Assembly: GCA_003165795.1 (NCBI GenBank) | Contig: PMWW01000121.1 | Coordinates: 1-37,771 of the forward strand | Direction: 5' to 3' | Length of the DNA stretch: 37,771 nt | DNA from: Acidobacteriaceae bacterium | GTDB lineage: Bacteria > Acidobacteriota > Terriglobia > Terriglobales > Acidobacteriaceae | In this document: positions 21,416-36,654 of the stretch, in pieces | Layout of the letters: every line of letters begins with the position of its first letter | Position numbering within the stretch: position 1 is the first letter of the stretch | Made by a program: the position numbers and the translations under genes | Notes under the pieces: generated by a model | The model's database searches: none | What the model saw: the letters and a program-made list of their open reading frames with translations, nothing else | Told to the model about the DNA's origin: nothing

Positions 21416-22048
21416 CTACTGAGCGTTCAATCCAACGCGCACGATCGCTCTGGCCTGCTCGGTCGATTCGAAGACGTGGCCCTGCATCCCGGCCTTGCGA
21501 GCGCCCTCCACATTGTTGGCACGATCGTCGAAGAACAGCGCCCGCTCGGGCTCACACCCCAGCGCGTCAAGGCAAATACGGTAGATCGCCGGATCGGGCT
21601 TGATGACGCCGTGCTCGCACGACCAGATCTGCACTTCAAATTCGTCCAGCCAGTCGAAGCTTTTCCGCATGTCGCACAGCAGGTCAGGAGGCATGTTAGA
21701 CAGAATGGCCGTGCGAACTCCGGCAACTTTGATTTCGCGCGCCAGCGCCAAAGCCTCTGGATTCACGCGCAGCCACATCCGTGTCTCCAACTCCACGATG
21801 CGCGCCAGCTGCTGGGGAGAAATCGATACGCCGGCGGCATCGGCAAAGCGCTGCCAGTGCTGGGCGCAGTCGTGGCGGCCGCAGTCGTATTCGTCCCGAG
21901 TGTCTGAGTAAAGCTGAAAAAAGGGCGGCTCGGTGACTCCGACGAGCGCCGCGAACTCCTGCCTTTCGGCAAGCGTGGGCACCTGACTCAACACGCGTCC
22001 GTAGTCGAAAATGACGACATCCCAGCGTTTCGATTCCATTGATTTCAT
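21416..22048 (-). CDS. HAD-superfamily (subfamily IA) hydrolase
   Basis: The 210-residue protein has the HAD motifs in order. Motif I is VVIFDYGRVL (about 11-20, nucleophile Asp15), motif II AILSNMP (about 114-120), motif III Lys in GVIKPDPAIYRICLDALG, and motif IV ALFFDDRANNVEGARKAGM. A helical cap lies between motifs I and II. In motif I the usual second Asp is Gly (DYG instead of DxD), as in the FDLGNVI type seen in YihX-like sugar-phosphate phosphatases and FDFGGVL-type proteins. A small phosphorylated metabolite is the likely substrate; it cannot be named. It is transcribed toward the repeat element and has no operon partner. Confidence 0.9.
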   Translation of the reverse strand: MKSMESKRWDVVIFDYGRVLSQVPTLAERQEFAALVGVTEPPFFQLYSDTRDEYDCGRHDCAQHWQRFADAAGVSISPQQLARIVELETRMWLRVNPEALALAREIKVAGVRTAILSNMPPDLLCDMRKSFDWLDEFEVQIWSCEHGVIKPDPAIYRICLDALGCEPERALFFDDRANNVEGARKAGMQGHVFESTEQARAIVRVGLNAQ

Positions 22049-22165
22049 TCTTACACAGCGGGCTGATCTTCAGCGTTATCCTGTTTGCGGCCTGAAATCG
22101 ACGCCGGATCATGAACTCATCGATAGGTTCGTGTTGCAGCTTTTATGCCGATTGAAGGAGGAGCG

Positions 22166-22561
22166 ATGAGCGCAAGCCCGCAAAATGGTCTCATTCACCT
22201 GCCGAGCAAACACTCCGTCGACGAAACGATGCAGCGGCTGGAGGCGCTCCTGCAGGAGCGCGGCGTGACCGTCTTCGCGCGGATTGACCACAGCGGCGAG
22301 GCCGCCAAGGTGGGCTTGACGATGCGTCCCACCAAGCTGCTGATCTTCGGCAGTCCGAAGGGCGGGACACCGTTGATGCAGGCCGCTCCCAGCATCGCTA
22401 TTGACCTCCCGCTGAAAGCTTTGTTCTGGGAAGACGGCGATGGGAAAGTCTGGCTCACGTACAATGACCCGGCCTATCTGCAACACCGGCACAATGTTCC
22501 AGTGGAGTTACTGCCGAATATCGCGGGGGTGAGCGGGTTGTTCACCAGGACTGTGGAGTAG
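22166..22561 (+). CDS. DUF302 domain protein
   Basis: The 131-residue protein matches DUF302. It has an N-terminal TMQRLEALLQERGVTVFARIDHSGEA, then PTKLLIFGSPKGGTPLMQAAPSIAIDLPLKALFWED and KVWLTYNDPAYLQHRH, which are the conserved blocks of this family. Its function is unknown, although the fold is known from structural genomics. The start at 22166 is chosen over an ATG seven codons earlier because AAGGAGGAG lies directly before it. It is divergent from the HAD gene and convergent with the phosphatase. Confidence 0.9.
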   Translation: MSASPQNGLIHLPSKHSVDETMQRLEALLQERGVTVFARIDHSGEAAKVGLTMRPTKLLIFGSPKGGTPLMQAAPSIAIDLPLKALFWEDGDGKVWLTYNDPAYLQHRHNVPVELLPNIAGVSGLFTRTVE

Positions 22562-22626
22562 CCTCGCAGGCGGCATCTACAGCTGTCTTTGCTTTGCCAT
22601 TCTGATTCCGACTTACAACAGCCGCT

Positions 22627-23820
22627 TTATGTCACCTTCACCAACATGCAGGTTACGTCGTCGTGCTGCGGAGCCGTGCCGACGAAACGGTCCAGATCCA
22701 CCAGAATACCGTTGAGCAGCGCCGTCGGCGTCAGCGTCACGCCCGAGTTCAGCATTGCGGTCAGGCGCTGCTCCCCGTATTCCTGTTGCCGGTTATCCTC
22801 GGCCTCGACCACTCCGTCGGTGAAAATCACCAGCCAGTCGCCGCTCTGCAGTGTGACCGTCCCCGATTCGTAAGGAACATTTTCCATGATGCCGAGCGGT
22901 ATTCCTCCCGCCTGCAGACGCTCAATGACACCGGTTGGGCGGCGCAACATCGGATTGTTGTGACCGGCATTGACGTACGTCAAGATGCGGGAGGTGGGAT
23001 CGAACTCGGCGATAAACGCCGTGGTGAACCGGCGGCCATTCTGACTGTTGCTGCAGGCATAGCGATTCATCCGGCCAACCAGCTCAGTCAGCGTACCCGG
23101 AGTCGTGGAAAGCGTCTTTAGGCTTGCCTGAAAAGTTGCCATCAGCATGGCTGCGGGAACGCTCTTGCCAGCCACGTCTGCAACCGCCAGCAGAAAGGTT
23201 TCGTCTTGCGGTGCAGAACACGGACGAGAGAACACGTCGTAGTAATCTCCAGCGACAGTGTTGGCCGGACGCGTGGCAAAGGCGATCTCCAGCCCAGGCA
23301 CCGGCGGAGGCTTGGCCGGCAACAGCCAAGCCTGGATCTCCTTCGCGATCTGCAGATCGCGCTTCATCACCACGCGATCGGCGACCTCCAGGATCAGCAG
23401 CACGAGCAGTAACACGCCGCCCCAGAAGTGGTTATCCAAAACGATGAACTTCGCCTGGCCATTGCTGCTTTGCCATGCGGCGTCGCCGCTGGGCAAGCAC
23501 AGTAATACGAGGGCAATCAGCAGCAGCACGCGGCGAGCGGGAGTCAGCTTCAGCAGGATTGCCCAGAAGAACTGGCTCACGAGGTTGAAGAAGTGCTTTC
23601 TCCGGGGCACTCCCGCAACCCGGCTAGAATCCACTTCGTGCGAGTACAAACGGTAGCTGGAACGGGCGTCCGTCTGAAACTGAGACCAAAGCTGGCTGAG
23701 TCGCATGCCATCGGTGACGCGCTGCCAGAAGCGGTCCACTCGTTCCATGAAGGTCTCGACGTGGGCGGTGAATTCGTCCTTTCGCGGTGGCGGACCGGCG
23801 GATTTCGTTTTCCTAGCCAT
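22627..23820 (-). CDS. Membrane-anchored PP2C/SpoIIE-family serine phosphatase
   Basis: The 397-residue protein (start taken at 23820, MARKTKSAG; an ATG 21 codons upstream is equally open and neither has a clear SD) begins with a basic cytoplasmic region. Two hydrophobic segments follow (about 94-112, VLLLIALVLLCLPS, and about 132-149, GGVLLLVLLILEVADRV). A helical linker (QIAKEIQAWLLP) leads into an RsbU/SpoIIE phosphatase domain. Metal-binding motifs are AGDYYDV, LAVADVAGKSVPAAMLMA, FTDGVVEAED and HDDVTCMLV. Such enzymes dephosphorylate anti-anti-sigma factors or similar regulators. No anti-sigma or STAS gene is adjacent, so the partner is unknown. Confidence 0.92.
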   Translation of the reverse strand: MARKTKSAGPPPRKDEFTAHVETFMERVDRFWQRVTDGMRLSQLWSQFQTDARSSYRLYSHEVDSSRVAGVPRRKHFFNLVSQFFWAILLKLTPARRVLLLIALVLLCLPSGDAAWQSSNGQAKFIVLDNHFWGGVLLLVLLILEVADRVVMKRDLQIAKEIQAWLLPAKPPPVPGLEIAFATRPANTVAGDYYDVFSRPCSAPQDETFLLAVADVAGKSVPAAMLMATFQASLKTLSTTPGTLTELVGRMNRYACSNSQNGRRFTTAFIAEFDPTSRILTYVNAGHNNPMLRRPTGVIERLQAGGIPLGIMENVPYESGTVTLQSGDWLVIFTDGVVEAEDNRQQEYGEQRLTAMLNSGVTLTPTALLNGILVDLDRFVGTAPQHDDVTCMLVKVT

Positions 23821-23934
23821 GGAGAAGATCAACCCGGATTGTAGAGGCGAATCCGCAGGCAAAGTGCGGCCTGGGGCGAGCATGGGAGTCTCGGGGTCTT
23901 CAAACCCTTGTTAGGTAGATGCGGGCAAGCGCCC

Positions 23935-25138: not shown

Positions 25139-26746
25139 CTACTCTCCGCCGCTGACCTTCGGGGCGTAGGGATTGTCGTCCACCACTCGCCAGACGGTAT
25201 CGAGCACCGTTCCATCGACCCATTTCACCACTGCAACCGGATAATCGAGCAGGCGGGGCTTGGACGGCTTGCCGCCGCAAATCTTCTCGACCTCGGCTTT
25301 GATTTCTTCGATGGAGCGGATGGGCAGGCCCTTGCCTCTGACCGCATCGAGCAGGTCTTGTCGTTTGGGATTGATGGCGATGCCGCGCTCGGTTGCGATG
25401 ACGTCAATTAGCTCGCCAGGACCGGTGATTGTCGTGACCTCGTCAACGATCACGGGAATGCGGTCGCGGAAAGATGGGACCGCGAGGATGGTGCATCCCG
25501 CAAACAGACAGTTCTGCCATCCGCCAATGCCATGCAGCAGCCGGCCGTCGGAATGCGTGACCACGTTGGCGTTGAAGTGGACATCCACTTCGGTTGCGCC
25601 CAGCACGGCGGCGTCGACCATGGAAGCGAAGTTGCCCTTGCCGTGGAAGTTATACGAAGTGAAGGGACTGGTCGCCACATGCCGCGGATCGCTGGCGATG
25701 GAACGCACCGCGTCAAGGTCGAAGGTCTGGCCGTCGAGAATGTAGCCGATGAGACCCTCGTTCAGCATATCGACCAGATATTTGGTCGAACCGCCACGCA
25801 CGAAACTGGCTTTCACGTTTGCCGCTTTCATCATGCGCGCGAGATGGTCCACGAAAGCCAGGGCGATGCCGCCAGCTCCGGCCTGAAAGGAGAACCCGTC
25901 ACGCATGATGCCACTGTCGCACAAGAAGCGGGCGACCAACTCCGAAATCCGCAGCCGGTCGGGGCTGCGCGTGATCTGCGTGGTGCCGCTGACGATCATC
26001 GAAGGGTCGCCGATGGAATCCACTTGCACTACGTAGTCCACGTTGTTGCCCTGAATCTGCCACGGAATGCAGGGGAAGGGCACGAGATTGTCGGTGACCG
26101 CGATAACGCGGTCTGCGTAGACGGAGTCGGCCAGCGCAAATCCCAGCGATCCGCAAGCCGACTTGCCATGCGAGCCGTCGGCATTGCCGAAGAAATCGGC
26201 GGTAGGCGCAGCGATGACCGCGATGTCAATGTGAACCTCGCCGTCCTGCACCGCTTGCCAACGTCCGCCGTGCGAACGCAAAACGCCAAGCCCGCGCATG
26301 TTGCCGTGCGAGCAGTAGTCGCCAAGCGGGCCATTCATGCTGCCTTCGATGTGATGCACCGCACCCGACTTCATCAGGTCGATGACCGGCTCGTGACAGG
26401 GAAACGACGCACTGGGAAACCAGACGAGGTCCTTCGCTCCCATGCGAGCGGCGGTTTGCAAGGCGGTGAGCGCAACCCGGTCTCCCTCGCGCAAATGATG
26501 ATGGCTACTGATGGTCATGCCGTCGCGCAGACCGCAGAGTCGCAGCGCCGTTTCGAGATCGGGCACCCGCTTGTCGCCGTTGGCCGGATAGTCGCTGTTG
26601 CTACGGATTGACGGGCCGGCTTTGTGACCGGTAGGGCGATGTCCGTCCACACCCTTGTACGGCTCCTGCTCACGGCCGTTGACCATCGTCGGAACGCGAC
26701 GGCCGGCGGCGTTCGTGATTAGTCCCGTCGCTAAACCTGCGCTCAT
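25139..26746 (-). CDS. citF: Citrate lyase alpha subunit (acetyl-ACP:citrate ACP-transferase)
   Basis: CitF exchanges the acetyl group on the acyl-carrier protein for citrate, the first half of citrate cleavage. The 535 residues cover the whole family (usually ~505-515), with typical blocks such as GLRDGMTISSHHHLREGD, IEGSMNGPLGDYCSHG, ADFFGNADGSHGKSACGSLGFALADSVYAD, FSFQAGAGGIALAF and NFHGKGNFASMVDAAVLGATEVDVHFNANVVTHSDG. It overlaps the fused CitD-CitE gene by four bases (ATGA), with AGGAGC before the start, so the subunits are translationally coupled. It is the last gene of the six-gene tricarboxylate operon. A citramalate lyase alpha subunit would look similar and cannot be excluded. Confidence 0.93.
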   Translation of the reverse strand: MSAGLATGLITNAAGRRVPTMVNGREQEPYKGVDGHRPTGHKAGPSIRSNSDYPANGDKRVPDLETALRLCGLRDGMTISSHHHLREGDRVALTALQTAARMGAKDLVWFPSASFPCHEPVIDLMKSGAVHHIEGSMNGPLGDYCSHGNMRGLGVLRSHGGRWQAVQDGEVHIDIAVIAAPTADFFGNADGSHGKSACGSLGFALADSVYADRVIAVTDNLVPFPCIPWQIQGNNVDYVVQVDSIGDPSMIVSGTTQITRSPDRLRISELVARFLCDSGIMRDGFSFQAGAGGIALAFVDHLARMMKAANVKASFVRGGSTKYLVDMLNEGLIGYILDGQTFDLDAVRSIASDPRHVATSPFTSYNFHGKGNFASMVDAAVLGATEVDVHFNANVVTHSDGRLLHGIGGWQNCLFAGCTILAVPSFRDRIPVIVDEVTTITGPGELIDVIATERGIAINPKRQDLLDAVRGKGLPIRSIEEIKAEVEKICGGKPSKPRLLDYPVAVVKWVDGTVLDTVWRVVDDNPYAPKVSGGE

Positions 26747-27987
26747 GATTGTGCTCCTGATGCCAGATCATTGCCGACGATACCCATCTGCCGGGCTCGC
26801 GCCACCAGTTTCAGCGCCCGCTGCACCACCGGTGCATCGATCATCTTCGAGCCCAGGCTGACAACTCCGAGGCCGCGCCTCTGAGCGTCTTCATAGGCGG
26901 CGACGATTTCTCGCGCTTTTTCCACCTCTGACGCAGTGGGACTGAAGGCACGATGAATGATCTCGATCTGAATAGGGTGAATGCACCCCATGCCTTCGAA
27001 GCCCAGGGCGCGAGAAGCTTGGCCCCAGCGCAACAGTCCGTCGCCATCAGCCGCGTCGCCGTATGCCGAGTCGATGGCCTGCACGTGCGCGGCGTGAGCT
27101 GCATTCGCTACTCGCTGACGCGCGTACAGCGATTCGGTTCCTTCAGGAGTCTTCGCCACGCCGAGATCGGCAGTGTAGTCTTCCAGGCCAATGGTTATTG
27201 CGGCGATCTGGCTGGAGGCCTTTGCGATGGTGAAAGCGTTCTCGATACCGAGCGCGGACTCCAGGATCGGCATTAGCCAAATCGGGCGAGCGACGCCCAC
27301 CTGCTGCGCGATCAATTCCATGGCTCTGACAACGTCAGATATCTGTTCCGGCGTCTCTACTTTCGGAACCAGGATCAAATCGGGCGATTGCGGAACGATC
27401 TCCTCCAGATCGGCCAATCCCAACGGAAGCTGATTGATGCGGACCATGCGCTCGGCCGCTTCGAAATCCAACGCCCGCAGCGCATTGCGCACCAGCAGCC
27501 GCGCAGTGTCTTTCTCCGCGAAGTAAACTGAGTCTTCCAGGTCGAGGATGATTGCATCCGGGGCGTGCAGTCCGGCGTTGACGAAGTACTTCGGCTCATT
27601 GCCCGGAAGATAGAGACGCGAGCGCCGCAAGCGATCGCGCGGCGAAGGCGCGGGCAGAGCGACGGCATCCGGCAAAGATGATTTGCCTTCCGCCAGTCCG
27701 GCCCGGCGAACGGCCGCTTCGATGCGGGCCGCAATGACGAACGGCAGCGCTCCTTCGTCGACGATGTCGATGTGGGCGTGCTTGACCCCCAGCGACTGCA
27801 ACACATCACGCACTTGTTGCCGGATGGCCCCGCCGTAGTAAAGATCCACGCGCGAGCGCAATTGGATATCGATACCACCGCTGGTGCGCTGCTCGAAGGT
27901 CACGTGCAGGTCGGAGCGAACGTCGCTTCCGGCGCGTCCGGCCTCGCCTCGAGCGTCTGCAACGTGTGGTGCAGCCGAAGAAGTCAA
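26743..27987 (-). CDS. citE: Fused citrate lyase acyl-carrier (CitD) and beta (CitE) subunit
   Basis: The 414-residue chain joins two normally separate subunits. Residues about 16-95 are CitD-like: AGRAGSD, then SDLHVTFE, GGIDIQLRSRVDLYYGGAIRQQVRDVLQSLGV and VDEGALPFVIAARIEAAVRRAG. Ser21 (or Ser25) is the candidate site for the phosphoribosyl-dephospho-CoA prosthetic group. A short Pro-rich linker leads to CitE (about 117-414): RSRLYLPGNEPKYF, AIILDLEDSV, LILVPKVETPEQI, IWLMPILESALGIENAF, ITIGLEDYTADLG and GFEGMGCIHPIQIEIIH. CitE cleaves citryl-ACP to oxaloacetate and acetyl-ACP. Initiation is at TTG 27987, with CGGAGGT 8 bases before it. No citC, citX or citG is nearby. Confidence 0.9.
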   Translation of the reverse strand: MTSSAAPHVADARGEAGRAGSDVRSDLHVTFEQRTSGGIDIQLRSRVDLYYGGAIRQQVRDVLQSLGVKHAHIDIVDEGALPFVIAARIEAAVRRAGLAEGKSSLPDAVALPAPSPRDRLRRSRLYLPGNEPKYFVNAGLHAPDAIILDLEDSVYFAEKDTARLLVRNALRALDFEAAERMVRINQLPLGLADLEEIVPQSPDLILVPKVETPEQISDVVRAMELIAQQVGVARPIWLMPILESALGIENAFTIAKASSQIAAITIGLEDYTADLGVAKTPEGTESLYARQRVANAAHAAHVQAIDSAYGDAADGDGLLRWGQASRALGFEGMGCIHPIQIEIIHRAFSPTASEVEKAREIVAAYEDAQRRGLGVVSLGSKMIDAPVVQRALKLVARARQMGIVGNDLASGAQS

Positions 27988-28001
27988 GATCGTTTACCTC
28001 C

Positions 28002-28059
28002 GGGGCTAAAGTCCTTACATAATTTGCGCGACAGAGACGCTGGCCTGAAGGTCAGCTCT
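28002..28059. repeat. Two-module intergenic repeat in the dehydrogenase-citDE spacer
   Basis: Module 1 is GGGGCTAAAGTCC (28002-28014) and module 2 is GACGCTGGCCTGAAGGTCAGCTCT (28036-28059), about 20 bases apart. The same two modules, same order and orientation, are at 33101-33161 in another spacer of this operon. The left module lies just upstream of the citDE SD. Confidence 0.7.
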
Positions 28060-28085
28060 TCCATCGCGAGGTCTGAGGGCAATAT

Positions 28086-29303
28086 CTAAACCACGCCGAC
28101 AGCCGCCTCCACATGCGAGCCAAGTTGTGCCAGGATGGCGTCGGTCATCTGCATCGTCGAGGCCGCTCCTTGGGCCAGCGACTGCGGGCCGCCCGGGATG
28201 CGCAACATATCGTAACTACGCACCTTGCCTTCGGCGACAACGGCAGCGATCGCAGCGCGGATCTGCTCCGCCTGCGCGTTTTCGCCGACGTGGTCCAGCA
28301 TCATCGCCGCTGACAGGACCATGGCGATGGGATTCACAATCGGTGGATCGAGCTCAGCATACTTCGGAGCGGAACCGTGCGTAGGTTCAAAAACAGCGAC
28401 CTCCTCACCGAGGTTCCCCGAGGCTGCGAAGCCGAGCCCGCCGACCAGTCCGGCGAAGGCATCGCTAATCACGTCGCCGAAAAGGTTGCTGGCGACGATC
28501 ACGCCGTAGTCTTCCGGATTCTTGGTGAGCCACATGGTTTGCGCGTCGATGTTGGTGGACCACAGTGGAATGTCGCCGTACTGCTTCTGCACTTCCTTGG
28601 CGGCGTCTTCCATCATCCCCGAAGTTTCGCGCAGCACGTTGGGCTTCTCGCAAATGGTTACGGACTTGTAGCCGAACTTGCGCGCATGTTGGAAGGCCGC
28701 TTCGCAGATACGTCGCGCCGCCGGACGCGTGATGATGCGGACGGAAATGGCGAGATCTTCGCCGGCAACTTTCTCGAAAGGCTTGAACTTCGTATTTGTA
28801 CTCAGGGCATCGCGCACCGCCTGCGGAGGGTTGGTCCACTCCACGCCGGCGTAGAGGCCCTCGGTATTTTGCCGGAAGACCACCACATCAACTTTCGGTT
28901 CTTCAAAGCCGCCAGCAGGCTTCTTGCGAATGAAGTTCAGCGGATTACCGGGAAACGACAGGCACGGCCGCGTGCAGACGTCGAGGTTGAACTTCTGCCG
29001 CACGGCAACGACGGGGCTGAAGTATTGATGGCCTTTGCCCCTCAATGCCGGCGTCAGCTCCGCCTCAGCTTCTTTCTTGGGCTTTGAAGTGATTGCGCCG
29101 AAGAGGCCGACTTTGTGCCGGCGCAGCAGTTCGAGGGTGCGCTCGGGCAAAGCATTGCCCTCTTTGATCCAACACTCCCAGCCGATATCGGCGTGAACAT
29201 ATTCAGCCTCGAAACCAACCGCGTCGAGCACGCGGATGGCTTCGGGAAGGACCTGATTTCCGATGCCATCTCCGGGCATGGTCACGATCGTGTGTTTTGC
29301 CAT
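28086..29303 (-). CDS. Isocitrate/isopropylmalate dehydrogenase-family enzyme
   Basis: This is an NAD(P)-dependent decarboxylating beta-hydroxyacid dehydrogenase. The 405 residues begin IVTMPGDGIGNQV and hold the family landmarks: VVVFRQNTEGLYAGVEW (catalytic Tyr), SVRIITRPAARRI, Lys in EKPNVLRETSG, the metal-binding Asp stretch SNLFGDVISDAFAGLVGGLGFAASGN, and the cofactor loop FEPTHGSAPKYA with NPIAMVLSAAMML. It is longer than LeuB (~350) and lacks a clear specificity signature, so isocitrate, homoisocitrate, methylmalate or tartrate are all possible. AGGAGAGG precedes the ATG. Its place between the aconitase-like and citrate-lyase genes suggests a tricarboxylic substrate. Confidence 0.9.
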   Translation of the reverse strand: MAKHTIVTMPGDGIGNQVLPEAIRVLDAVGFEAEYVHADIGWECWIKEGNALPERTLELLRRHKVGLFGAITSKPKKEAEAELTPALRGKGHQYFSPVVAVRQKFNLDVCTRPCLSFPGNPLNFIRKKPAGGFEEPKVDVVVFRQNTEGLYAGVEWTNPPQAVRDALSTNTKFKPFEKVAGEDLAISVRIITRPAARRICEAAFQHARKFGYKSVTICEKPNVLRETSGMMEDAAKEVQKQYGDIPLWSTNIDAQTMWLTKNPEDYGVIVASNLFGDVISDAFAGLVGGLGFAASGNLGEEVAVFEPTHGSAPKYAELDPPIVNPIAMVLSAAMMLDHVGENAQAEQIRAAIAAVVAEGKVRSYDMLRIPGGPQSLAQGAASTMQMTDAILAQLGSHVEAAVGVV

Positions 29304-29323
29304 CCAAAACCTCTCCTTCGAGG

Positions 29324-29370
29324 TTCATCCTGAGCGCAGGCGGCATTTCGCCGCCGTAGTCAAAGGACCC
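29324..29370 (+). repeat. TCATCCTGAGCG-type intergenic repeat, copy 3
   Basis: TTCATCCTGAGCGCAGGCGG, then CATTTCGCCGCCGTAGTC and AAAGGACCC. It matches 12737-12786 with a few changes (GTAGTCAAAGG for GGAGTCGAAGG). It fills much of the 111-base spacer between the aconitase-like gene and the dehydrogenase gene. Confidence 0.7.
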
Positions 29371-29414
29371 CTATTCTTCCAGCACTGACGTATCCCACAT
29401 TGTGAGATCATCCC

Positions 29415-31376
29415 CTAAACCGCCACCGCTCCATGAATTCCCAGCTTCTTGCTAACCAGATTCTCCACGCCGCCTACGATCACCAACGACTGCGGCACGC
29501 TGCCCAGAGCTGGGAAGGTAAACACTTCGCCGGCATACTTGATGGTGCTGGCGGCGAAGTCAACTTCGATCAGGGCCCCGGGAATAATGCTCTTCTCCTT
29601 GCGCGCAATCGCATCCGCAAACTTTGCGCGCAGACGGCGTACCAACTGCGGCGTCTCGATGCACAAGAATCCGTTGTTGAAAGCGTTACGCAGGTACGTC
29701 TGTGAAAAGCTGCCGGCAATCACCAGGGGAATGCCTTTGCACTGCAGTGCGGTTACCGCCTGTTCGCGGCTGGAGCCGGTCCCGAAGTTAAAGCCGCCGA
29801 CCACAACGTCGCCTGCCTCGGTGCGCCCGGCAAACTGCGGATCATAGTTTTCCATCACCACGTGCGCCATCATCTCGGGCGTCATGTCTTCGCGATAGGT
29901 GTAATCCTTGCCGTAGATACCGTCGGTGTTCAGATTGTCCGGCGGGAGAAAGACCAACCGTCCACGAACGCTGGCTGGAAATCCAGCAAGGATCTCTACC
30001 TTTTCGGCGGCAGCCGACGCCTCCGGGAACTCCTCGAAACATCTCGTCACTTCGCGGTATTGCGGCTGTCCCGGCCCGCAGATGTAGCCCGCGATAGCCG
30101 ACGCCGCCACCACTTCGGGACTGCCGAGATAGCACTGTGCGTCGCGCGAGCCCATGCGTCCTTTGAAATTGCGATTGGTGGCGGAGATGCCGACTTCGCC
30201 AGCTTCGAGCAGCCCCGTGCCCAGGCCGATGCACGGTCCGCATCCGGAAGGCAGCGGCTGCGCCCCGGCATCGAGAAAAATCTTCCAGATGCCGCGCTTC
30301 TCGGCTTCCTCTTGCACCGAGCGGCTGGCGGCAGCAAGATAGAAGGTCACGCTATTTGCGATTGTCTGACCCTGTAAAACTTTCGCTGCAGCCGCAAGAT
30401 CCTCCAGCCGCGAATTTACGCAGGAGACGAGGTAGGCCTTCTGGATGGCAACCTTTTTTTTCGCGATCTCGGCAACCGATTGCATTACCTGCACTGTGTC
30501 TGGCCCGGAGACGTGCGGCGTAACCTCGCCGAGGTTGAGAACGATGCGGGCGGCATAGACCGCGTCTTGGTCGGGAGCGGGAGGATTCCTGCGCCATGCC
30601 GCAAACTTCTCTTGCGGAATGCGTGCGACGCCCTGTGCTCGCAGTTCGCGATTGCGCGCGTCCAAATAAGCGAGCGTGACCTCATCCACCGGAAACCAGC
30701 CCACCAGCGCGCCCCACTCGGTGGACATGTTGGCGATGCTCAAACGCGCATCCATGCTGAGCGAAGCCACGCCCGGGCCGGCGAATTCGACGGCAGCGTT
30801 CAACACTTCTTCCTGGTTGTACAAGCCGCAGAGCGTAACGATGATGTCCTTGCCGGTCGCGCCCGCCGCGAGTTTGCCCTCGAGGACGACCTGCACCGTG
30901 CGCGGAATCTGCCACCAGAATTCGCCGGTGGCCCAGATGGCCGCAGCGTCGGTGCGAACCACTGGCGTTCCAATCGCGCCCAGCGCTCCGTACATATTGG
31001 AGTGCGAGTCGGAGGCCACGACAAACGTTCCGGGCAGCACATAGCCTTTCTCCACCATGATCTGGTGACCAATGCCCGTGCCCGGTGGATAAAAATCGAT
31101 GCCGCGTTCGCGCGCGAAAGTTTCCATGCTGCGATACTTGGCCAGGTTCGACTCTTCCGGGTTCTGAATGTCGTGGTCGGCGGTGAACACCGGCTGCGCG
31201 GGATCGTACACCTGCCTGGCGCCGATGGCCTTGAACTTCTTCATCACCGCCGAAGTGTTGTCGTGAGTCATCACGTGGTAGGGGCGGATGGAGAGGAAAT
31301 CGCCCGCGCGCAAGGGGCGGCTCGGCCCCTCAGCCATGTGAGACTGGGAAATCTTTTCTACGATGGTCTGTGCCAT
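29415..31376 (-). CDS. Single-chain aconitase-superfamily hydro-lyase, homoaconitase (Lys4)-like
   Basis: The 653-residue protein joins a LeuC-like large domain and a LeuD-like swivel domain in one chain. The [4Fe-4S] ligands are Cys319 (SCVNSRLEDL), Cys379 and Cys382 (PSGCGPCIGLG). The N-terminal part has THDNTSAVMKKF, TGIGHQIMVEKG and VVASDSHSNMYGALGA. The swivel domain reads DNLNTDGIYGKDYTYREDMTPEMM, ENYD, GFNFGTGSSREQAVTALQCKGIPLVIAGSFSQTYLRNAFNNG. From memory this resembles fungal homoaconitase Lys4 more than aconitase A or B. It should interconvert 2- and 3-hydroxy tricarboxylates through the cis-ene acid. An AGAGGC site precedes the ATG. Confidence 0.9.
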   Translation of the reverse strand: MAQTIVEKISQSHMAEGPSRPLRAGDFLSIRPYHVMTHDNTSAVMKKFKAIGARQVYDPAQPVFTADHDIQNPEESNLAKYRSMETFARERGIDFYPPGTGIGHQIMVEKGYVLPGTFVVASDSHSNMYGALGAIGTPVVRTDAAAIWATGEFWWQIPRTVQVVLEGKLAAGATGKDIIVTLCGLYNQEEVLNAAVEFAGPGVASLSMDARLSIANMSTEWGALVGWFPVDEVTLAYLDARNRELRAQGVARIPQEKFAAWRRNPPAPDQDAVYAARIVLNLGEVTPHVSGPDTVQVMQSVAEIAKKKVAIQKAYLVSCVNSRLEDLAAAAKVLQGQTIANSVTFYLAAASRSVQEEAEKRGIWKIFLDAGAQPLPSGCGPCIGLGTGLLEAGEVGISATNRNFKGRMGSRDAQCYLGSPEVVAASAIAGYICGPGQPQYREVTRCFEEFPEASAAAEKVEILAGFPASVRGRLVFLPPDNLNTDGIYGKDYTYREDMTPEMMAHVVMENYDPQFAGRTEAGDVVVGGFNFGTGSSREQAVTALQCKGIPLVIAGSFSQTYLRNAFNNGFLCIETPQLVRRLRAKFADAIARKEKSIIPGALIEVDFAASTIKYAGEVFTFPALGSVPQSLVIVGGVENLVSKKLGIHGAVAV

Positions 31377-31459
31377 ATATGCCTCTAAATTCGCGGACTC
31401 CCGAGTCAGGGTGAGAACATTGTGCCGTCCCTACAGGACTCGGATTTATTTCCGCTTTA

Positions 31460-31479
31460 CCCAGGGCTTCCGCCCTGGG
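31460..31479. repeat. Intergenic palindrome CCCAGGGC-TTCC-GCCCTGGG
   Basis: A perfect palindrome, with the wider unit ACCCAGGGCTTCC...CCTGGGCTAATG related to 19369-19388. It lies in the 279-base spacer between the MmgE/PrpD gene and the aconitase-like gene. The remainder of the spacer shows no coding frame or clear promoter. Confidence 0.65.
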
Positions 31480-31655
31480 CTAATGTTGTTTCGCTCTTCG
31501 GGCTGGGCTGATGAGTTCTCTGGCCTTAATTACCCAGCACAAGCTCAACGATTGACCCCTCGCGCCAACTTCAGGCCCCTAAGGTCAGCAATTAACGGCT
31601 GGCTCCTTTTAAAGTTTCGGCACAGTCCATCAGACCCGCCTCGCGATAAGTAACC

Positions 31656-33062
31656 CTACTTCACGCAAAACATTCTCATCAGTTCGCTCACGCTCGACTG
31701 CTTCTCCAAGTTCCAGATGGCGTCGATGGCGCGGCGGCGCGCCTGGCACGACATCACCGGCTCGGCCAACGCCTCGAACTTCTCTTCCACTTCATTATCG
31801 GTCAGGGGATTGCGCGGGTCGCCTTTAGGATAGTCGAGCTGCTCGGTAAATTCGCGGCCATCGATGGTATGAATCCTGACGATCACGCGCTGCAAGGCAG
31901 GAAAGAGTTTTTCGATTTCAGAATCGGCCGTTACGACGATCTTGTTAAGCTGCTCCCGAATCACCGGGTCCATGATCTTCGCTGGCGTGAATTGCAGCGG
32001 CGTCACCTGGCGCTCGGCGATGGCGGCGGCGACTACATAGGGCAGCGAGTGATCGGCGGTTTCCTTGGTGTGCGGATCGTATTTGCTGGGATCGCTAAGG
32101 ATGTCGGCGCCGCGCGCGGTGGTGCGAATATGCACTTTGGCGATATCGTTGGGCCTTAGATCGTGGTCCTTAACCAGCGCCAGCACAGCCGAGATCGGAG
32201 TATGCGTCAGCGCTTCGGTGGGAAACGCCTTCATCCCACATTGTGTGATACGCCAGGAATCGCCCAGCCCATTGGTCAGGATGTTCAGCTTCCACTCCGG
32301 ACCGAAGCAGTGCACCAAGCCTTCTTTACCGTCGATGACATGTTCCGGACCGGTGTAACCTTTTTCCGCGAGCAGGGCGGCCAACATCCCACTCTGTGTG
32401 GCCATGGGATCGACGGTGTTCTTCATCATGGTCAGCTTGCCGGCAGTGACCGCGCCCAGAGTGGCGCGCGCGCTGGCGCTGATGCCGATGGCGTGCCGAA
32501 TCTGTTCCGGGGTGAGGTGCAACATGCGGCCGGCAACGATGGGCGAGACAAACGCCGTCAGCGTGGCATGATGCCAGCCGCGCTCGCGAATGCCAGGGAA
32601 AGCAGCTTCGCAGAGCCGCATCTCGAATTCATGACCCAACACCAGGCCAACCATGAGCTCGCGCCCGTCACTTCCAACGCGCTCGCAGGCGGCGATCGCG
32701 GCAGGAAAAATGTCAGACGGGTGCGACGGGTCCTGCTTCCAATAGATGTCGTTGTAATCCATGCAGCGGATCATCAAGGCGTTGGCGAGCGACGCCGAGA
32801 CGGCATCCATCCGCTTGCCGCTGCCGATCAGCGTTGCCTTCCCCGGCCCGGCAATTTCGTCCAGCACATCAAGGGCTATGATCACGTCGTGCTGCTGATA
32901 TCCGCCAAGCGCGCAGCCGATGCTGTCGAGCAGGAAACGTTTGGCCTGGTAAACTGCGTCCGGCGAAAGCTGGTCGAACGTCAGGTTGGCGGCCCATTGC
33001 GACATGGTCGCGGTGATGGTGGGCTGGCTCGGGGTCTTGGCCGCGGCGGCCGGGGTCGCCAT
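31656..33062 (-). CDS. MmgE/PrpD-family dehydratase/decarboxylase-like protein
   Basis: The 468-residue protein belongs to the MmgE/PrpD family (2-methylcitrate dehydratase, cis-aconitate decarboxylase and relatives). Landmarks are KRFLLDSIGCALGGY, ANALMIRCMDYNDIYWKQDPSHPSDIFPAAIAACE, the conserved RGWHHATLTAFVSPIVAGRML, AIGISASARATLGAVTAGKLTMMKNTVDPMATQSGMLAALLAEKGYTGPE and KAFPTEALTHTPISAVLAL. A catalytic function of dehydrating a methylcitrate- or citrate-like acid, or decarboxylating aconitate, is inferred from the family. GGAGAA lies 8 bases before the ATG. It is the second gene of the operon and adds a further tricarboxylate-handling activity. Confidence 0.92.
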   Translation of the reverse strand: MATPAAAAKTPSQPTITATMSQWAANLTFDQLSPDAVYQAKRFLLDSIGCALGGYQQHDVIIALDVLDEIAGPGKATLIGSGKRMDAVSASLANALMIRCMDYNDIYWKQDPSHPSDIFPAAIAACERVGSDGRELMVGLVLGHEFEMRLCEAAFPGIRERGWHHATLTAFVSPIVAGRMLHLTPEQIRHAIGISASARATLGAVTAGKLTMMKNTVDPMATQSGMLAALLAEKGYTGPEHVIDGKEGLVHCFGPEWKLNILTNGLGDSWRITQCGMKAFPTEALTHTPISAVLALVKDHDLRPNDIAKVHIRTTARGADILSDPSKYDPHTKETADHSLPYVVAAAIAERQVTPLQFTPAKIMDPVIREQLNKIVVTADSEIEKLFPALQRVIVRIHTIDGREFTEQLDYPKGDPRNPLTDNEVEEKFEALAEPVMSCQARRRAIDAIWNLEKQSSVSELMRMFCVK

Positions 33063-33100
33063 AATGATGTTCTCCGAAGTCCGAACGTAAATCGTGTTCT

Positions 33101-33161
33101 GGGCTAAAGCCCCTCATATCTATTTATAGGCGGTCTGGACGCTGGCCTGAAGGCCAGCTCT
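33101..33161. repeat. Two-module intergenic repeat in the HD-PrpD spacer
   Basis: GGGCTAAAGCCC (33101-33112) and GGACGCTGGCCTGAAGGCCAGCTCT (33137-33161). The arrangement repeats 28002-28059; the second module also matches 862-885 in reverse. It lies in the 154-base spacer before the MmgE/PrpD start. Confidence 0.72.
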
Positions 33162-33216
33162 AACCACCAATCGAGCTGCCAATAACGTACCCACTTCGCC
33201 AACGTTCTTGTCCCTG

Positions 33217-33759
33217 CTACTTGGCCAGGTTCTTGAACGGCAGGAACGCCATGAAGTCGGCGTGATGCACGATATAGGCTTCGGTGGTGCGCTTCACCAG
33301 ATCGCCTTCAGCAGCGTGTGCCGCAATGATGTGGCAGACAGCGTCAGGCACGCCGCACTCCATAGCCAATGCTACGCCTGTGAAGGGATGGCGCAACAGC
33401 TCGCCACGCTTGCTCTGCCGCGTCTTGCCGTCCACGTTCTCGTACTCAAGCAGCTTGCCTACGTCGGCCAGGATAGCGCCGGCAATGACGGTGTCCATGT
33501 CGATGGGCAGGGCCCGGCCCATGAACTCGATCATGCTCTCGGCTGCCTGGCGCGCGATGTGCACTACGCAGCGCTTGTGCTCCATGAAGGTCGTGGGACA
33601 GTTCGGCACCAGCAGGGTGAAGGGAATCCGATTCAGGTCGTCGGGCGTGAGTGGACTCAATTCGAGCGCTCTTTGCCAGGTCTTCGTGATTTGCTCGCGA
33701 AGCTCGGGATTCTTGATCCATTCGATCTCAGGCCAGAGTTTGAGAACTGCGTCGCGCAT
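33217..33759 (-). CDS. HD-superfamily-like protein with a degenerate HD motif
   Basis: The 180-residue protein has the helical pattern of HD-domain proteins: VVHIARQAAESM, AGAILADVGKLLEYE, RHPFTGVALAMECG, HIIAAHAAEGD and VHHADFMAF. In a working phosphohydrolase the second block would read HD-x-GK, but here it is AD-x-GK: the metal-binding His is replaced by Ala (codon GCC). Other histidines and the last HxD are kept. Metal binding may be altered or lost. A GGAGGAGGAGCG site directly precedes the ATG. It is the first gene of the tricarboxylate operon; its role there is unknown, perhaps regulatory or as an enzyme of new specificity. Confidence 0.75.
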   Translation of the reverse strand: MRDAVLKLWPEIEWIKNPELREQITKTWQRALELSPLTPDDLNRIPFTLLVPNCPTTFMEHKRCVVHIARQAAESMIEFMGRALPIDMDTVIAGAILADVGKLLEYENVDGKTRQSKRGELLRHPFTGVALAMECGVPDAVCHIIAAHAAEGDLVKRTTEAYIVHHADFMAFLPFKNLAK

Positions 33760-34320
33760 CGCTCCTCCTCCGCTGTGCCGGATGGAATTGCACCCAAGGA
33801 TTAAACAGAGGGGAATTCTGTCCGAAGGCGAACGGATATTCGTATCATTCTTGTCGCGGCAGGGCTATGACAGGCATCACACGAAGCCGGGACGGAGGCT
33901 GCTCAAGCTGTGATCGGCAAGTTCTTTGCGCCGGTTTGTGGAACCAAGGCCCATAGCTTTTGTCGAACGTGATCTCCTGAGTGTACCCGCCTGCAGGATT
34001 TCGTTCCCCACCCTTTCACCGCAGGTACGAAAGGATTGATTGGATAAGAGAGAAGGCTCGCTTCGATCCGGTAGTCTTGGTTTGTGGACTAAGACACTGG
34101 GGAAGGAAGGAGCCTTCCATGCTTTTAGGGTGAAGTGTTGCAAAAGTAAGCCACAAATGGGGTAATTTTGGGCTGTATCGGTGCGGATGGAAGACCGTCA
34201 GGAGTTCTCCGATAGAAAAATCGTTTCACGGTGTCACGAACGGGCGAGACCGGTGTAATATGGTGTCCTTTTCGAGGTAACAAAAAGAAATTCCGGATTA
34301 GCCTGTCCGGGGAGGTTAAT
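33760..34320. other. Spacer between the tricarboxylate operon and the membrane cassette
   Basis: About 560 bases with divergent genes at both ends, so both promoters should lie here. A short minus-strand frame (33877-34143) has no SD or protein-like features and was not called. GAAGGCTC near 34052 and GAGCCTTC near 34110 form a long-range inverted repeat. A TTTAAT about 50 bases before the HD start (minus strand) is a weak -10 candidate. Confidence 0.5.
34256..34261 (+). promoter_or_regulatory. Candidate -10 (TAATAT) for the three-gene membrane cassette
   Basis: TGTAATAT about 60 bases before the start at 34321; no good -35 was seen. The implied leader contains a short CCGGA/TCCGG hairpin just before the SD GGGGAGG. 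Weak, given only because it is the best match in the spacer. Confidence 0.3.
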
Positions 34321-35238
34321 ATGTCCGCCCGCTCTGATCTGTACGGCCCTTCCGGGTCGCCGTTCCAGCATCAATACGCAAAGGAACTGGAAAGCCGTGA
34401 GCAACACTTTACGACGCCCCGCGTTTTTGAGATGGAGGCCAGTCAGGTCAAGATTAAGTCTCTGCCTGGCGGAGCTATATGGGGTGTGGTCGGACTCCCT
34501 GGCTCCCCAACGATTACATCCTTGATCAGGGCTTTGGAGTCGAAGGATTATTCGGTCCTGGACGGCCTGGCTCGTGCCCAACTGACCCGCTTCGATTCCT
34601 TTGAGGCGATCAGGAAACTAGGGGTCGGAAAACTATCCGATATTCCGGTGCTTGCCGATCTGCATTACCGCCAGCGCCGCATAGCTCCCGGTCTCTTCAC
34701 CACGCCATCCCTTGACGCTTTAATCTCGGTAATGCCGTACACCGGGGGGCGATTGACCCATGAGGACTTTCAGCTCGCACAGTACCCTTTACCCTCACGC
34801 GAAGCCAACCTCGAATGCGTGGTCGTGATTCGCCACCCAGTGCTCACCGACATTGAAAAACAAATCCTCGATCGCGTACCTAACGAATATCCTGAAGGCG
34901 TCGTTGGCAACCCCCCCAGTATGTTCTTTCCCGGTGTGGTTGCGGGTTTCGTGGTGATCGGTTTGTTATTGGTGGCGGGCAAGTATTTTCTACAATGGGC
35001 CACGCGACACGTTGAGCAGGCCCAGGGAGGTCAGCAGCAGGGAGGCCAGGACATGGCGGGTCAGGGCGACCAGGGAGGTCAGGACGACCAGGGAGGCCAG
35101 GACGATAGCGGCCTTTTTGGGAGTTATCACCCGGCCGAAATGCTCGCCGAGGTGGGCAAAATCGACCCCAGTGTGGCAGCTGAAACGCTGCTGGAGATCC
35201 GGTCTGAATTAATCAAAGCTCATCTCCTGGGGGTCTGA
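34321..35238 (+). CDS. Unrecognised single-pass membrane protein with a Gly/Gln/Asp repeat tail
   Basis: The 305-residue protein was not recognised. The start at 34321 follows GGGGAGG at 5 bases. Residues 1-200 are soluble-looking and mixed, with GGAIWGVVGLPGSPTITSLIRALES and ANLECVVVIRHPVLTDIEKQILDRVPNEYP as the most structured parts. A membrane helix is at about 203-224 (FPGVVAGFVVIGLLLVAGKYFL), followed by a low-complexity tail of QGGQ, QGDQ and QDDQ units (234-264). A short helical end (PAEMLAEVGKIDPSVAAETLLEIRSELIKAHLLGV) closes it. There is no N-terminal signal. It is the first gene of a three-gene cassette (8-base gap, then a 4-base overlap). It may be the substrate or partner of the two membrane proteins that follow. 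Confidence 0.75.
   Translation: MSARSDLYGPSGSPFQHQYAKELESREQHFTTPRVFEMEASQVKIKSLPGGAIWGVVGLPGSPTITSLIRALESKDYSVLDGLARAQLTRFDSFEAIRKLGVGKLSDIPVLADLHYRQRRIAPGLFTTPSLDALISVMPYTGGRLTHEDFQLAQYPLPSREANLECVVVIRHPVLTDIEKQILDRVPNEYPEGVVGNPPSMFFPGVVAGFVVIGLLLVAGKYFLQWATRHVEQAQGGQQQGGQDMAGQGDQGGQDDQGGQDDSGLFGSYHPAEMLAEVGKIDPSVAAETLLEIRSELIKAHLLGV
35020..35108 (+). repeat. Imperfect tandem repeat coding the Gly/Gln/Asp tail
   Basis: Units of CAGGGAGGTCAG / CAGGGAGGCCAG alternate with GACGAC, GACATGGCG and CAGCAG. The last two units (an 18-base period around 35071-35106) are nearly identical. Such a tract can expand or contract by slippage in steps that keep the reading frame. Confidence 0.75.
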
Positions 35239-35245
35239 ATTATTC

Positions 35246-35818
35246 ATGTCGTACTTCATCGTGCTGTTTTTGGTTGGCTGGCTGGCCCTCTCTGTTGCGG
35301 CGCAGGTGCGGGGGCAGCACTTGCGGTCGGCGAGAAAGATACTCGGTCGAATCAGAGACTACGACTATTGCTCTATGATCCCTTCGTGGTCCTTCTTCGC
35401 ACCCAATCCGGGCACGAGAGACTTCCAGTTGATGTATCGTGACAAGTTGCTCGATGGCCAGTTCACGGTGTGGAAGTCGGTCCAATGTCTGTCCTACCCA
35501 TACCTCAGGTTCGTTTGGAATCCACACAAGAGACGCGCGAAGGCCATCGTCGACCTCTGCGTTTTCCTTATGGGCGATCTAAAGCGTGTCCTAGAGGCGG
35601 AGGCCCCTGAAAAAGCGGAGGCCCTTGGTAAGAGCATTTATATATCTCTGCCTTATATAGGTCTGGCAACCTACATATCCCGCGTTCCTCATAGCCCATT
35701 CAGCGATTTCACTCAGTTTATGATCGCCACCAGCTACGGCTTCGACACCGATAAGCCCCCTGAGATCGCTTTCATATCGCCGTTATATCGCCTCCAAGAA
35801 CTTGCGTCAGCGGCATGA
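35246..35818 (+). CDS. Small membrane-anchored protein with a W-x-FFAPNP motif (SdpA/DUF5819-like)
   Basis: The 190-residue protein starts with a membrane or signal segment (about 2-19, SYFIVLFLVGWLALSVAA). It then has the motif MIPSWSFFAPNPGTRDFQLMYRD (about 44-66). A W-x-F-F-x-P-x-P-x-x-x-D pattern just after a membrane anchor is typical of proteins encoded beside HTTM proteins (SdpA-like and DUF5819-like). The rest (KSVQCLSYPYLRFVWNPHKRR, then a helical LKRVLEAEAPEKAEALGKSIYISLPYIGLATYI) is not recognised. It starts 8 bases after the preceding gene and overlaps the HTTM gene by four bases (ATGA). Function is inferred only: a helper of the HTTM protein. Confidence 0.78.
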   Translation: MSYFIVLFLVGWLALSVAAQVRGQHLRSARKILGRIRDYDYCSMIPSWSFFAPNPGTRDFQLMYRDKLLDGQFTVWKSVQCLSYPYLRFVWNPHKRRAKAIVDLCVFLMGDLKRVLEAEAPEKAEALGKSIYISLPYIGLATYISRVPHSPFSDFTQFMIATSYGFDTDKPPEIAFISPLYRLQELASAA

Positions 35819-36654
35819 CTCCGGAAGACGCAGTCGGAATCGCCGTCAAGCTCATCTCCATCGGAGTTATTATTGACGCCGCTGAAGGCCTGTGGATCCG
35901 GCAAGAATTTGGCCCGAGCGGCCTTTTCAATTGGCAGGTACTCCGCACTACCCACCGCTGGATGTCTCGCCGGTCTGCCACTCTTGTACTTGATGGCGTA
36001 TTGCAGTATCCCAACTACCTGGCTCTCTTGATCGTCGAAATCATCTGTGCCGCCGTTCTTCTGGGGCGAACGTCCACGTTGCTTCTCTGCATTGTATTGG
36101 CGGTGCGGCTTCTCTCGCACTTGAGAAATCAGTATGGCCTTGACGGCGCCGACCAGATGCTGGTCGTCGTGCTCGCGGGCTGCATTGGTTGGCGAATTGC
36201 ACCTGAATCTTGGGCAAAAGAAGTCTGTATCTGGTTTGTGTGTTTGCAAGCCATCTTGTCTTACGTGACGGCGGGAACCGCCAAGGCGATCTCGCCTGTG
36301 TGGCGCAGTGGCACCGCGGTGCGAGACATCCTCCGTACCAATTATGTAGGTAGTCGCATATCGTTCCAATGGCTGAGTCGCAACTCGCGGCTTTCCTGGG
36401 CAGCTTGCTGGGGCACCATACTGTTTGAGTGCGCCATGCCGATTCTGATTTTCTGCGGTCCTAAGCTTTGCTTGGTGTTCTTGGCTTGTGGCGTTTTGTT
36501 TCATGTCTCGATTGCGATCACCATGGGCCTGAACGATTTCCCGTGGGCGTTCTTAGCAACTTATCCGTTTATCTTTCTGTGCTCAGTCGACTTCGCTGCC
36601 GCAATTAGGCACGGTGCTTACTGGGTCAGTACTGCAGGAAAAACGGTGCGCTAG
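35815..36654 (+). CDS. HTTM-domain membrane protein (SdpB / vitamin-K-carboxylase-like)
   Basis: The 279-residue protein has about six to eight hydrophobic helices. It carries two landmarks of the HTTM (horizontally transferred transmembrane) family: LRNQYGLDGADQM (about 103-115) and YVTAGTAKAISPVWRSGTAVRDIL (about 150-173). HTTM proteins include SdpB, needed to mature the SdpC killing peptide in Bacillus, and the membrane part of vitamin-K-dependent gamma-carboxylases. At 279 residues it is the short SdpB-like kind without the lumenal carboxylase domain. It is translationally coupled to the FFAPNP protein. Whether the cassette matures a peptide or serves another membrane role is not shown. 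Confidence 0.85.
   Translation: MTPEDAVGIAVKLISIGVIIDAAEGLWIRQEFGPSGLFNWQVLRTTHRWMSRRSATLVLDGVLQYPNYLALLIVEIICAAVLLGRTSTLLLCIVLAVRLLSHLRNQYGLDGADQMLVVVLAGCIGWRIAPESWAKEVCIWFVCLQAILSYVTAGTAKAISPVWRSGTAVRDILRTNYVGSRISFQWLSRNSRLSWAACWGTILFECAMPILIFCGPKLCLVFLACGVLFHVSIAITMGLNDFPWAFLATYPFIFLCSVDFAAAIRHGAYWVSTAGKTVR

Follow-up and report, generated by a model that had tools for sequence, protein, structure and literature searches.

We describe a six-gene operon within a 37,771-nucleotide stretch of DNA from an Acidobacteriaceae bacterium (contig PMWW01000121.1; this whole stretch is hereafter the window). The operon, which spans positions 25139-33759, encodes a relative of citrate lyase next to enzymes of the aconitase, MmgE/PrpD, and isocitrate/isopropylmalate dehydrogenase families. 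The six genes are a strongly conserved unit, and their lyase apparently represents a branch free of the classical prosthetic group. Our preferred reading, which we give somewhat less than an even chance, is that the operon carries out the intracellular chain-shortening of 2-oxoadipate to 2-oxoglutarate and acetate (i.e., the first half of the α-aminoadipate pathway in reverse). More guardedly still, we propose that it exemplifies an undescribed catabolic route that would be widespread among uncultured soil and sediment bacteria, in which 2-oxoadipate (or another 2-oxodicarboxylate) would be shortened in a sequence ending in a CoA-dependent homocitrate lyase, a former citrate lyase that would have lost its prosthetic group.

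The six genes form a strongly conserved unit

The operon consists of six open reading frames (ORFs), all on the minus strand, which encode, in this order, an HD-domain protein, an MmgE/PrpD-family protein, an aconitase-family hydro-lyase, an Iso_dh-family dehydrogenase, a CitD-CitE fusion, and CitF. As calculated from their coordinates, the successive gaps are 154, 279, 111, and 98 bases, followed by a 4-base overlap between the CitD-CitE and CitF genes. Five of the six proteins score far above their Pfam cut-offs, the HD protein being the exception. This confirms the co-directional ORFs and the families named in a preliminary description of the locus, with CitD and CitE forming a single fused chain. 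The source genome (4.95 Mb in 208 contigs) is 99.35% complete.

When CitF was searched in 297 genomes of the phylum, it had a match at an E-value of 1e-20 in 50. A wider search of contigs confirmed at least 395 candidates, the best 80 of which were kept as loci for mapping the six proteins, and gene order was counted in the 49 that extend 7.6 kb or more upstream of CitF. The complete set is found in the same order in 39 of these 49 loci, which rules out chance or misassembly as the origin of the six ORFs. By their labels, the MAGs (metagenome-assembled genomes) with the complete set include Acidobacteriota, Gemmatimonadota, and Bacteroidetes; in L073 and L079, the HD match overlaps PrpD. Conservation of the neighborhood in relatives, on which the preliminary description had made its proposal depend, is therefore borne out. 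As for the other ten loci, PrpD is absent from three (L082, L083, and L091), runs of N break up two (L078 and L099), L042 is rearranged, and nothing but CitF or CitDE-CitF is seen in four (L040, L045, L086, and L107). Going by unchecked labels, the 80 loci come mostly from MAGs of Acidobacteriota and Gemmatimonadota, with a few from Krumholzibacteriia, Deltaproteobacteria, Planctomycetota, and Bacteroidetes. The findings point to a pathway of central carbon metabolism that is strongly conserved among MAGs from several phyla of uncultured bacteria and would be annotated as citrate lyase, aconitase, and isocitrate dehydrogenase.

No wider conserved cluster was found around the unit. Reverse-strand overlaps apart, the commonest other neighbor family occurs in 12 of 63 loci, and nothing therefore points to a transporter or regulator dedicated to the unit. 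Two sets of ORFs recur more often, in 25 and 23 loci, but these lie on the reverse strand, and examples of them overlap the HD and dehydrogenase genes.

The lyase departs from classical citrate lyase

As for the lyase, Pfam and NCBIfam identify CitF (25139..26746, minus strand) as the acyl/CoA-transferase subunit and the CitD-CitE fusion (26743..27987, minus strand) as the citryl-CoA-lyase-type subunit. The Pfam scores are above cut-off for both CitF (431.5 bits) and HpcH_HpaI (182.4 bits), with the NCBIfam scores falling slightly below cut-off for citF (490.4 versus 501.45 bits) and below it for citE (268.2 versus 443.4 bits). The module resembles classical CitDEF citrate lyase in its full-length CitE and CitF and its recognizable CitD domain. 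However, in contrast to the classical enzyme, CitD is fused to CitE and carries an Arg at the position of the Ser to which the prosthetic group is attached (VRSD codons at 27910..27921, minus strand). This Arg is present in all 72 sequences that show the region. Besides the window and four divergent members, these comprise 67 of the 74 CitDE ORFs in the 80 loci, the other seven being fragments that start past the region. In three classical-type genomes of the phylum, in which CitF is 40-44% identical, CitD reads QSSD or ESSD, the first Ser of which is the known attachment site.

The prosthetic group of citrate lyase is made and attached by CitG and CitX. We searched for both proteins in 20 genomes (12 with the module, three with a classical CitF, G124 with an orphan CitF of 55% identity, G262 with a CitF of 32% identity, and three CitF-negative relatives). 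Both are present in all three classical genomes, whereas the 12 module genomes, G124, G262, and the CitF-negative relatives yielded neither. The lack of citG and citX at the locus, pointed out in the preliminary description, thus extends to whole genomes; citC is not among the six genes either, and no genome-wide search was aimed at CitC. The Ser-to-Arg replacement, together with the failure to find CitG and CitX, argues that this is not a classical citrate lyase. Since the flanking enzymes also look nearer to a homocitrate series, the earlier wording of an operon centered on citrate lyase is not supported.

From these observations, we infer that the lyase acts on free CoA thioesters: CitF would transfer CoA itself and CitE would split the free thioester, the CitD domain perhaps being retained as a structural or CoA-binding domain. 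The Arg and the failure to find CitG and CitX bear on the existence of a free-CoA branch within the citrate lyase family. Lyases that use free citramalyl-CoA or citryl-CoA, such as RipC, are known, and they are not known to have CitF or a CitD domain. The module would share with them a CitE-type lyase that uses CoA esters, but it differs by its CitF and CitD domain, and its CitE scores 268 bits with the citE model and 153 bits with the RipC model, both below cut-off.

These features also have to be weighed against an ordinary cofactor-bearing citrate lyase, the maturation enzymes of which would have given way to unrelated proteins, the HD protein perhaps among them. Such an enzyme would fit with a CitD domain that is kept and fused, with an HD protein conserved in the unit, and with the Ser that follows the Arg in 69 of the 72 sequences. 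However, this Ser is a Gly in L102 and an Ala in L104 and L109 (in L109, the CitDE frame is broken at 121 residues), the Arg and Asp staying in place, and none of the 12 module genomes yielded CitG or CitX. We therefore regard this explanation as improbable.

CitF relatives with 50-55% identity occur in six further loci (L129-L134, from G124, G212, G013, G276, G228, and G012). The stretches fetched around them, several of which are short (3.1 kb for L132), showed no CitDE. These proteins are possible stand-alone CoA-transferases.

The flanking enzymes fit a homocitrate series better than a citrate series

In the chain-shortening that we favor, every reaction, direction, and substrate is a prediction from protein families and motifs. 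The dehydrogenase would carboxylate 2-oxoadipate with NADPH to homoisocitrate, which the homoaconitase-like enzyme would dehydrate to homoaconitate. The PrpD-family enzyme, or a second LeuCD-like enzyme in deeper relatives, would hydrate homoaconitate to homocitrate. CitF would then shift CoA from acetyl-CoA to homocitrate with release of acetate, and CitE would split homocitryl-CoA into 2-oxoglutarate and acetyl-CoA. The continuous path from a 2-oxoacid to acetate and a shorter oxoacid, which the preliminary description had put forward, is thus plausible. The predicted route resembles the α-aminoadipate pathway (LYS4, LYS12/AksF) in its homoaconitase-family enzyme above cut-off, its homoisocitrate-dehydrogenase-like enzyme, and its two hydro-lyases, but it has a lyase in place of homocitrate synthase. 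In the literature searched, we found no description of such a pathway, and no paper with a homocitrate lyase or one that joins citrate lyase to homoaconitase and homoisocitrate dehydrogenase, in line with the earlier remark that this combination is not one recognized as a described pathway.

The one-chain aconitase-superfamily hydro-lyase (29415..31376, minus strand) matches the homoaconitase model TIGR00139 with 730.9 bits, above the cut-off of 529.9. This is the only cut-off that it passes among the 25 models shown, no aconitase cut-off being reached. As for the MmgE/PrpD-family protein (31656..33062, minus strand; Pfam and NCBIfam), it is a putative hydro-lyase that would act on the substrate of the lyase, and it scores below the PrpD equivalog cut-offs (79.5 versus 950, 76.2 versus 575, and 56.5 versus 458 bits).

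The dehydrogenase (28086..29303, minus strand) is of the homoisocitrate/isocitrate type with a KY motif, as judged by Pfam, NCBIfam, and alignment. Its best matches are the methanogen AksF homoisocitrate dehydrogenase models, far below their cut-offs (the top score among the 16 models listed is 275.1 bits, with a cut-off of 540, and a relative in L219 reaches 363.7 bits), and LeuB models score lower than the homoisocitrate models. When the protein was aligned to solved structures, its loop LFGAITS (codons at 29085..29105, minus strand) proved similar to that of the homoisocitrate dehydrogenase from Thermus (3asj; LFGAATS), the corresponding loop in isocitrate dehydrogenases being FKGPLT (6lky) or LKSPLT (6ltf). 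Moreover, where the latter two enzymes have S-x-N, the dehydrogenase has S-P-V, the Asn being replaced by Val (SPVVAVR codons at 28998..29018, minus strand). In a set of 63 sequences (the window and 62 relatives), LFGAITS and SP[IV]V occur in all 57 full loops, the six sequences without the loop being fragments of 55-249 residues; the S-P-[IV] search pattern itself required the S and a later V. HGSAPKY, the KY motif of which we take to be of the NADP type, is found in 61 of the 63, and nine divergent relatives carry the same three motifs. In family f31 (L220, L231, and L232), the module dehydrogenase adjoins genes resembling those for alanine dehydrogenase and butyryl-CoA:acetate-CoA-transferase, both neighbor proteins of L220 scoring below cut-off, a neighborhood hinting at amino acid fermentation.

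Divergent members of the unit show other arrangements. L142 (G081) lacks both PrpD and a dehydrogenase and holds HD, two LeuC/LeuD-like pairs, CitDE, CitF, and a GYD-domain protein, and G032 has, on one contig and one strand, a dehydrogenase, HD, two successive hydro-lyases, CitDE, and CitF. L217 has a dehydrogenase, HD, and a fused hydro-lyase; L218 has HD and one LeuC/LeuD-like pair; and L215, L216, and L219 have one or both such pairs beside a dehydrogenase. It thus appears that, in these deeper relatives, PrpD and the one-chain enzyme are replaced by two LeuCD-like hydro-lyases. According to PMC3556520, the isomerization of homocitrate in fungi requires two enzymes. Taken with the two distinct hydro-lyases beside the lyase in L142 and G032, this supports homocitrate as the substrate without deciding the matter.

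In L218 (3367-8095), HD and the second hydro-lyase pair lie directly after genes read as S-adenosylmethionine synthetase (metK) and adenosylhomocysteinase (ahcY).

A branched series, in which 2-oxobutyrate and CO2 would give 3-methylmalate, then citramalate, and finally pyruvate and acetate, would make the operon a reverse citramalate pathway for carbon from threonine or methionine. It can call on the gene order of L218, on the hydrophobic residues of SP[IV]V where the dehydrogenase would contact its substrate, which resemble those of isopropylmalate-type enzymes, and on hydro-lyases that match an isopropylmalate/citramalate isomerase structure nearly as well (212 versus 241 bits and 363 versus 375 bits). 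Citramalate lyases of the CitDEF type are also known, and one is used in the methylaspartate pathway of glutamate fermentation. The module resembles that pathway in having a CitDEF-type lyase as its last step, yielding acetate and an oxoacid, but its unit also holds a decarboxylating dehydrogenase and PrpD. However, LeuB models rank below the homoisocitrate models for the dehydrogenase, the hydro-lyase exceeds the homoaconitase cut-off only among the models shown, and the link to methionine genes is seen in a single genome. We thus consider the branched series improbable.

Genomic context

Proteins of the LeuA/homocitrate-synthase superfamily (PF00682) are missing from 11 of the 18 genomes examined, namely eight of the 15 with CitDE-CitF and all three with orphan CitF relatives. 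This sets the module further apart from the α-aminoadipate pathway and fits cleavage rather than synthesis. In the window genome, three PF00682 matches were found: one of the HMG-CoA-lyase type, a carboxylase-type subunit, and a 441-residue protein of the LeuA/homocitrate-synthase type that is below every curated cut-off listed. Given this last protein, homocitrate synthesis in the window genome is conceivable. The same genome encodes two other aconitase-family proteins (frames of 940 and 681 residues), and it has three other Iso_dh loci and two of the citrate synthase matches that occur in 15 of the 18 genomes. Therefore, of the separate enzymes brought up in the preliminary description, aconitase-family and Iso_dh proteins do exist elsewhere in the genome, but the LeuA/homocitrate-synthase family is represented only by the one protein below all listed cut-offs.

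These counts bear on the main rival of 2-oxoadipate shortening, a citrate series run by the same prosthetic-group-free module. Here, 2-oxoglutarate and CO2 would give isocitrate, then citrate, and finally oxaloacetate and acetate, which would make the operon a route for glutamate or 2-oxoglutarate. In seven deep relatives (G081, G070, G091, G056, G280, G012, and G124), the module dehydrogenase is the sole match to that of the window at an E-value of 1e-15. In four genomes (G081, G045, G070, and G091), two LeuC-like proteins, which could serve isocitrate and citrate, are the sole matches to a LeuC-like query at 1e-20, although such a query could miss an AcnA-type enzyme (which matched at only 7e-24 in G124). 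Moreover, there is no citrate synthase match in G081, G045, and G280. In the window genome, however, splitting citrate would be futile, since it would undo the work of citrate synthase beside separate aconitase-family and Iso_dh genes, which argues for another substrate. Likewise, the dehydrogenase is without the Asn of isocitrate dehydrogenases, and the hydro-lyase exceeds the homoaconitase cut-off and no aconitase cut-off among the models shown. A citrate series is therefore unlikely, yet it is the alternative to be taken most seriously.

A possible link to lysine is seen in family f65, where genes for lysine-ketoglutarate reductase (LKR) and saccharopine dehydrogenase (SDH) lie on the same strand as CitF in two genera, ~7 kb away in G185 and ~17 kb away in G161 (L262:11147-13847 and L261:11272-13960). 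LKR was found in 16 of 43 module-type genomes versus 42 of 254 others (Fisher p 0.003, relatedness not being corrected for); the 43 include genomes with an orphan CitF and partial hits, but seven genomes with a CitF match, three of them classical and four with a CitF of at most 36% identity, were left out of the 50. With all 50 counted, the figures are 19 of 50 versus 39 of 247. PF16653 is present in 41 of the 50 genomes that have a CitF match of any kind versus 130 of the 247 without one, but this domain is not specific. The link of the module to lysine is suggestive only, and the saccharopine route of lysine breakdown is only partly borne out as its general partner.

Several findings weigh against the 2-oxoadipate reading. 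LKR was detected in no member of the window's family, its own genome included, which leaves the source of 2-oxoadipate there unexplained. Reductive carboxylation would cost NADPH and CO2; the dehydrogenase attains at most 62% of the cut-off for any of the 16 models listed; PF00682 proteins are present in seven of the 15 module genomes, including that of the window; and three of the 49 loci (L082, L083, and L091) have no PrpD, the hydro-lyase coming straight after HD. Finally, PMC3556520 states that the homoaconitase of M. jannaschii alone performs both half-reactions, so that two hydro-lyases are not proof of homocitrate.

No LeuC-type aconitase-family match (~480 residues, 600 bits) was found in eight module genomes (G000, G210, G161, G185, G231, G092, G263, and G046), but one is present in three other module genomes and in five CitF-negative relatives. 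Leucine auxotrophy is possible in these eight.

HD protein and neighboring genes

The HD-domain protein encoded by the first gene (33217..33759, minus strand) has no Pfam match and was recognized from NCBIfam, where it exceeds the HDIG cut-off (32.8 versus 27.6 bits), and from its predicted structure. It is 71-97% identical between the window and 22 relatives, and H61, D99, H124, H148, and D168 are invariant in the 23 aligned sequences. In all 23 of these main-clade members, the His of the HD pair is an Ala (A98, in ILADVGK), but it is a His in L142, L217, and L218, suggesting that metal binding may be altered in the main clade. The structural model has a pLDDT of 90.5, and its nearest solved structures are HD proteins with weak matches: one below an E-value of 0.001 (YhaM), followed by the cyanamide hydratase Ddi2 at 0.035. 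As these matches are too weak, no function was assigned from them. The protein would be regulatory or an accessory hydrolase.

Upstream of the operon, three successive plus-strand ORFs (34231-36654) have no Pfam match at an E-value of 0.001. Downstream (21416-23883), there are genes for a SpoIIE-type phosphatase, a DUF302 protein, and a HAD hydrolase.

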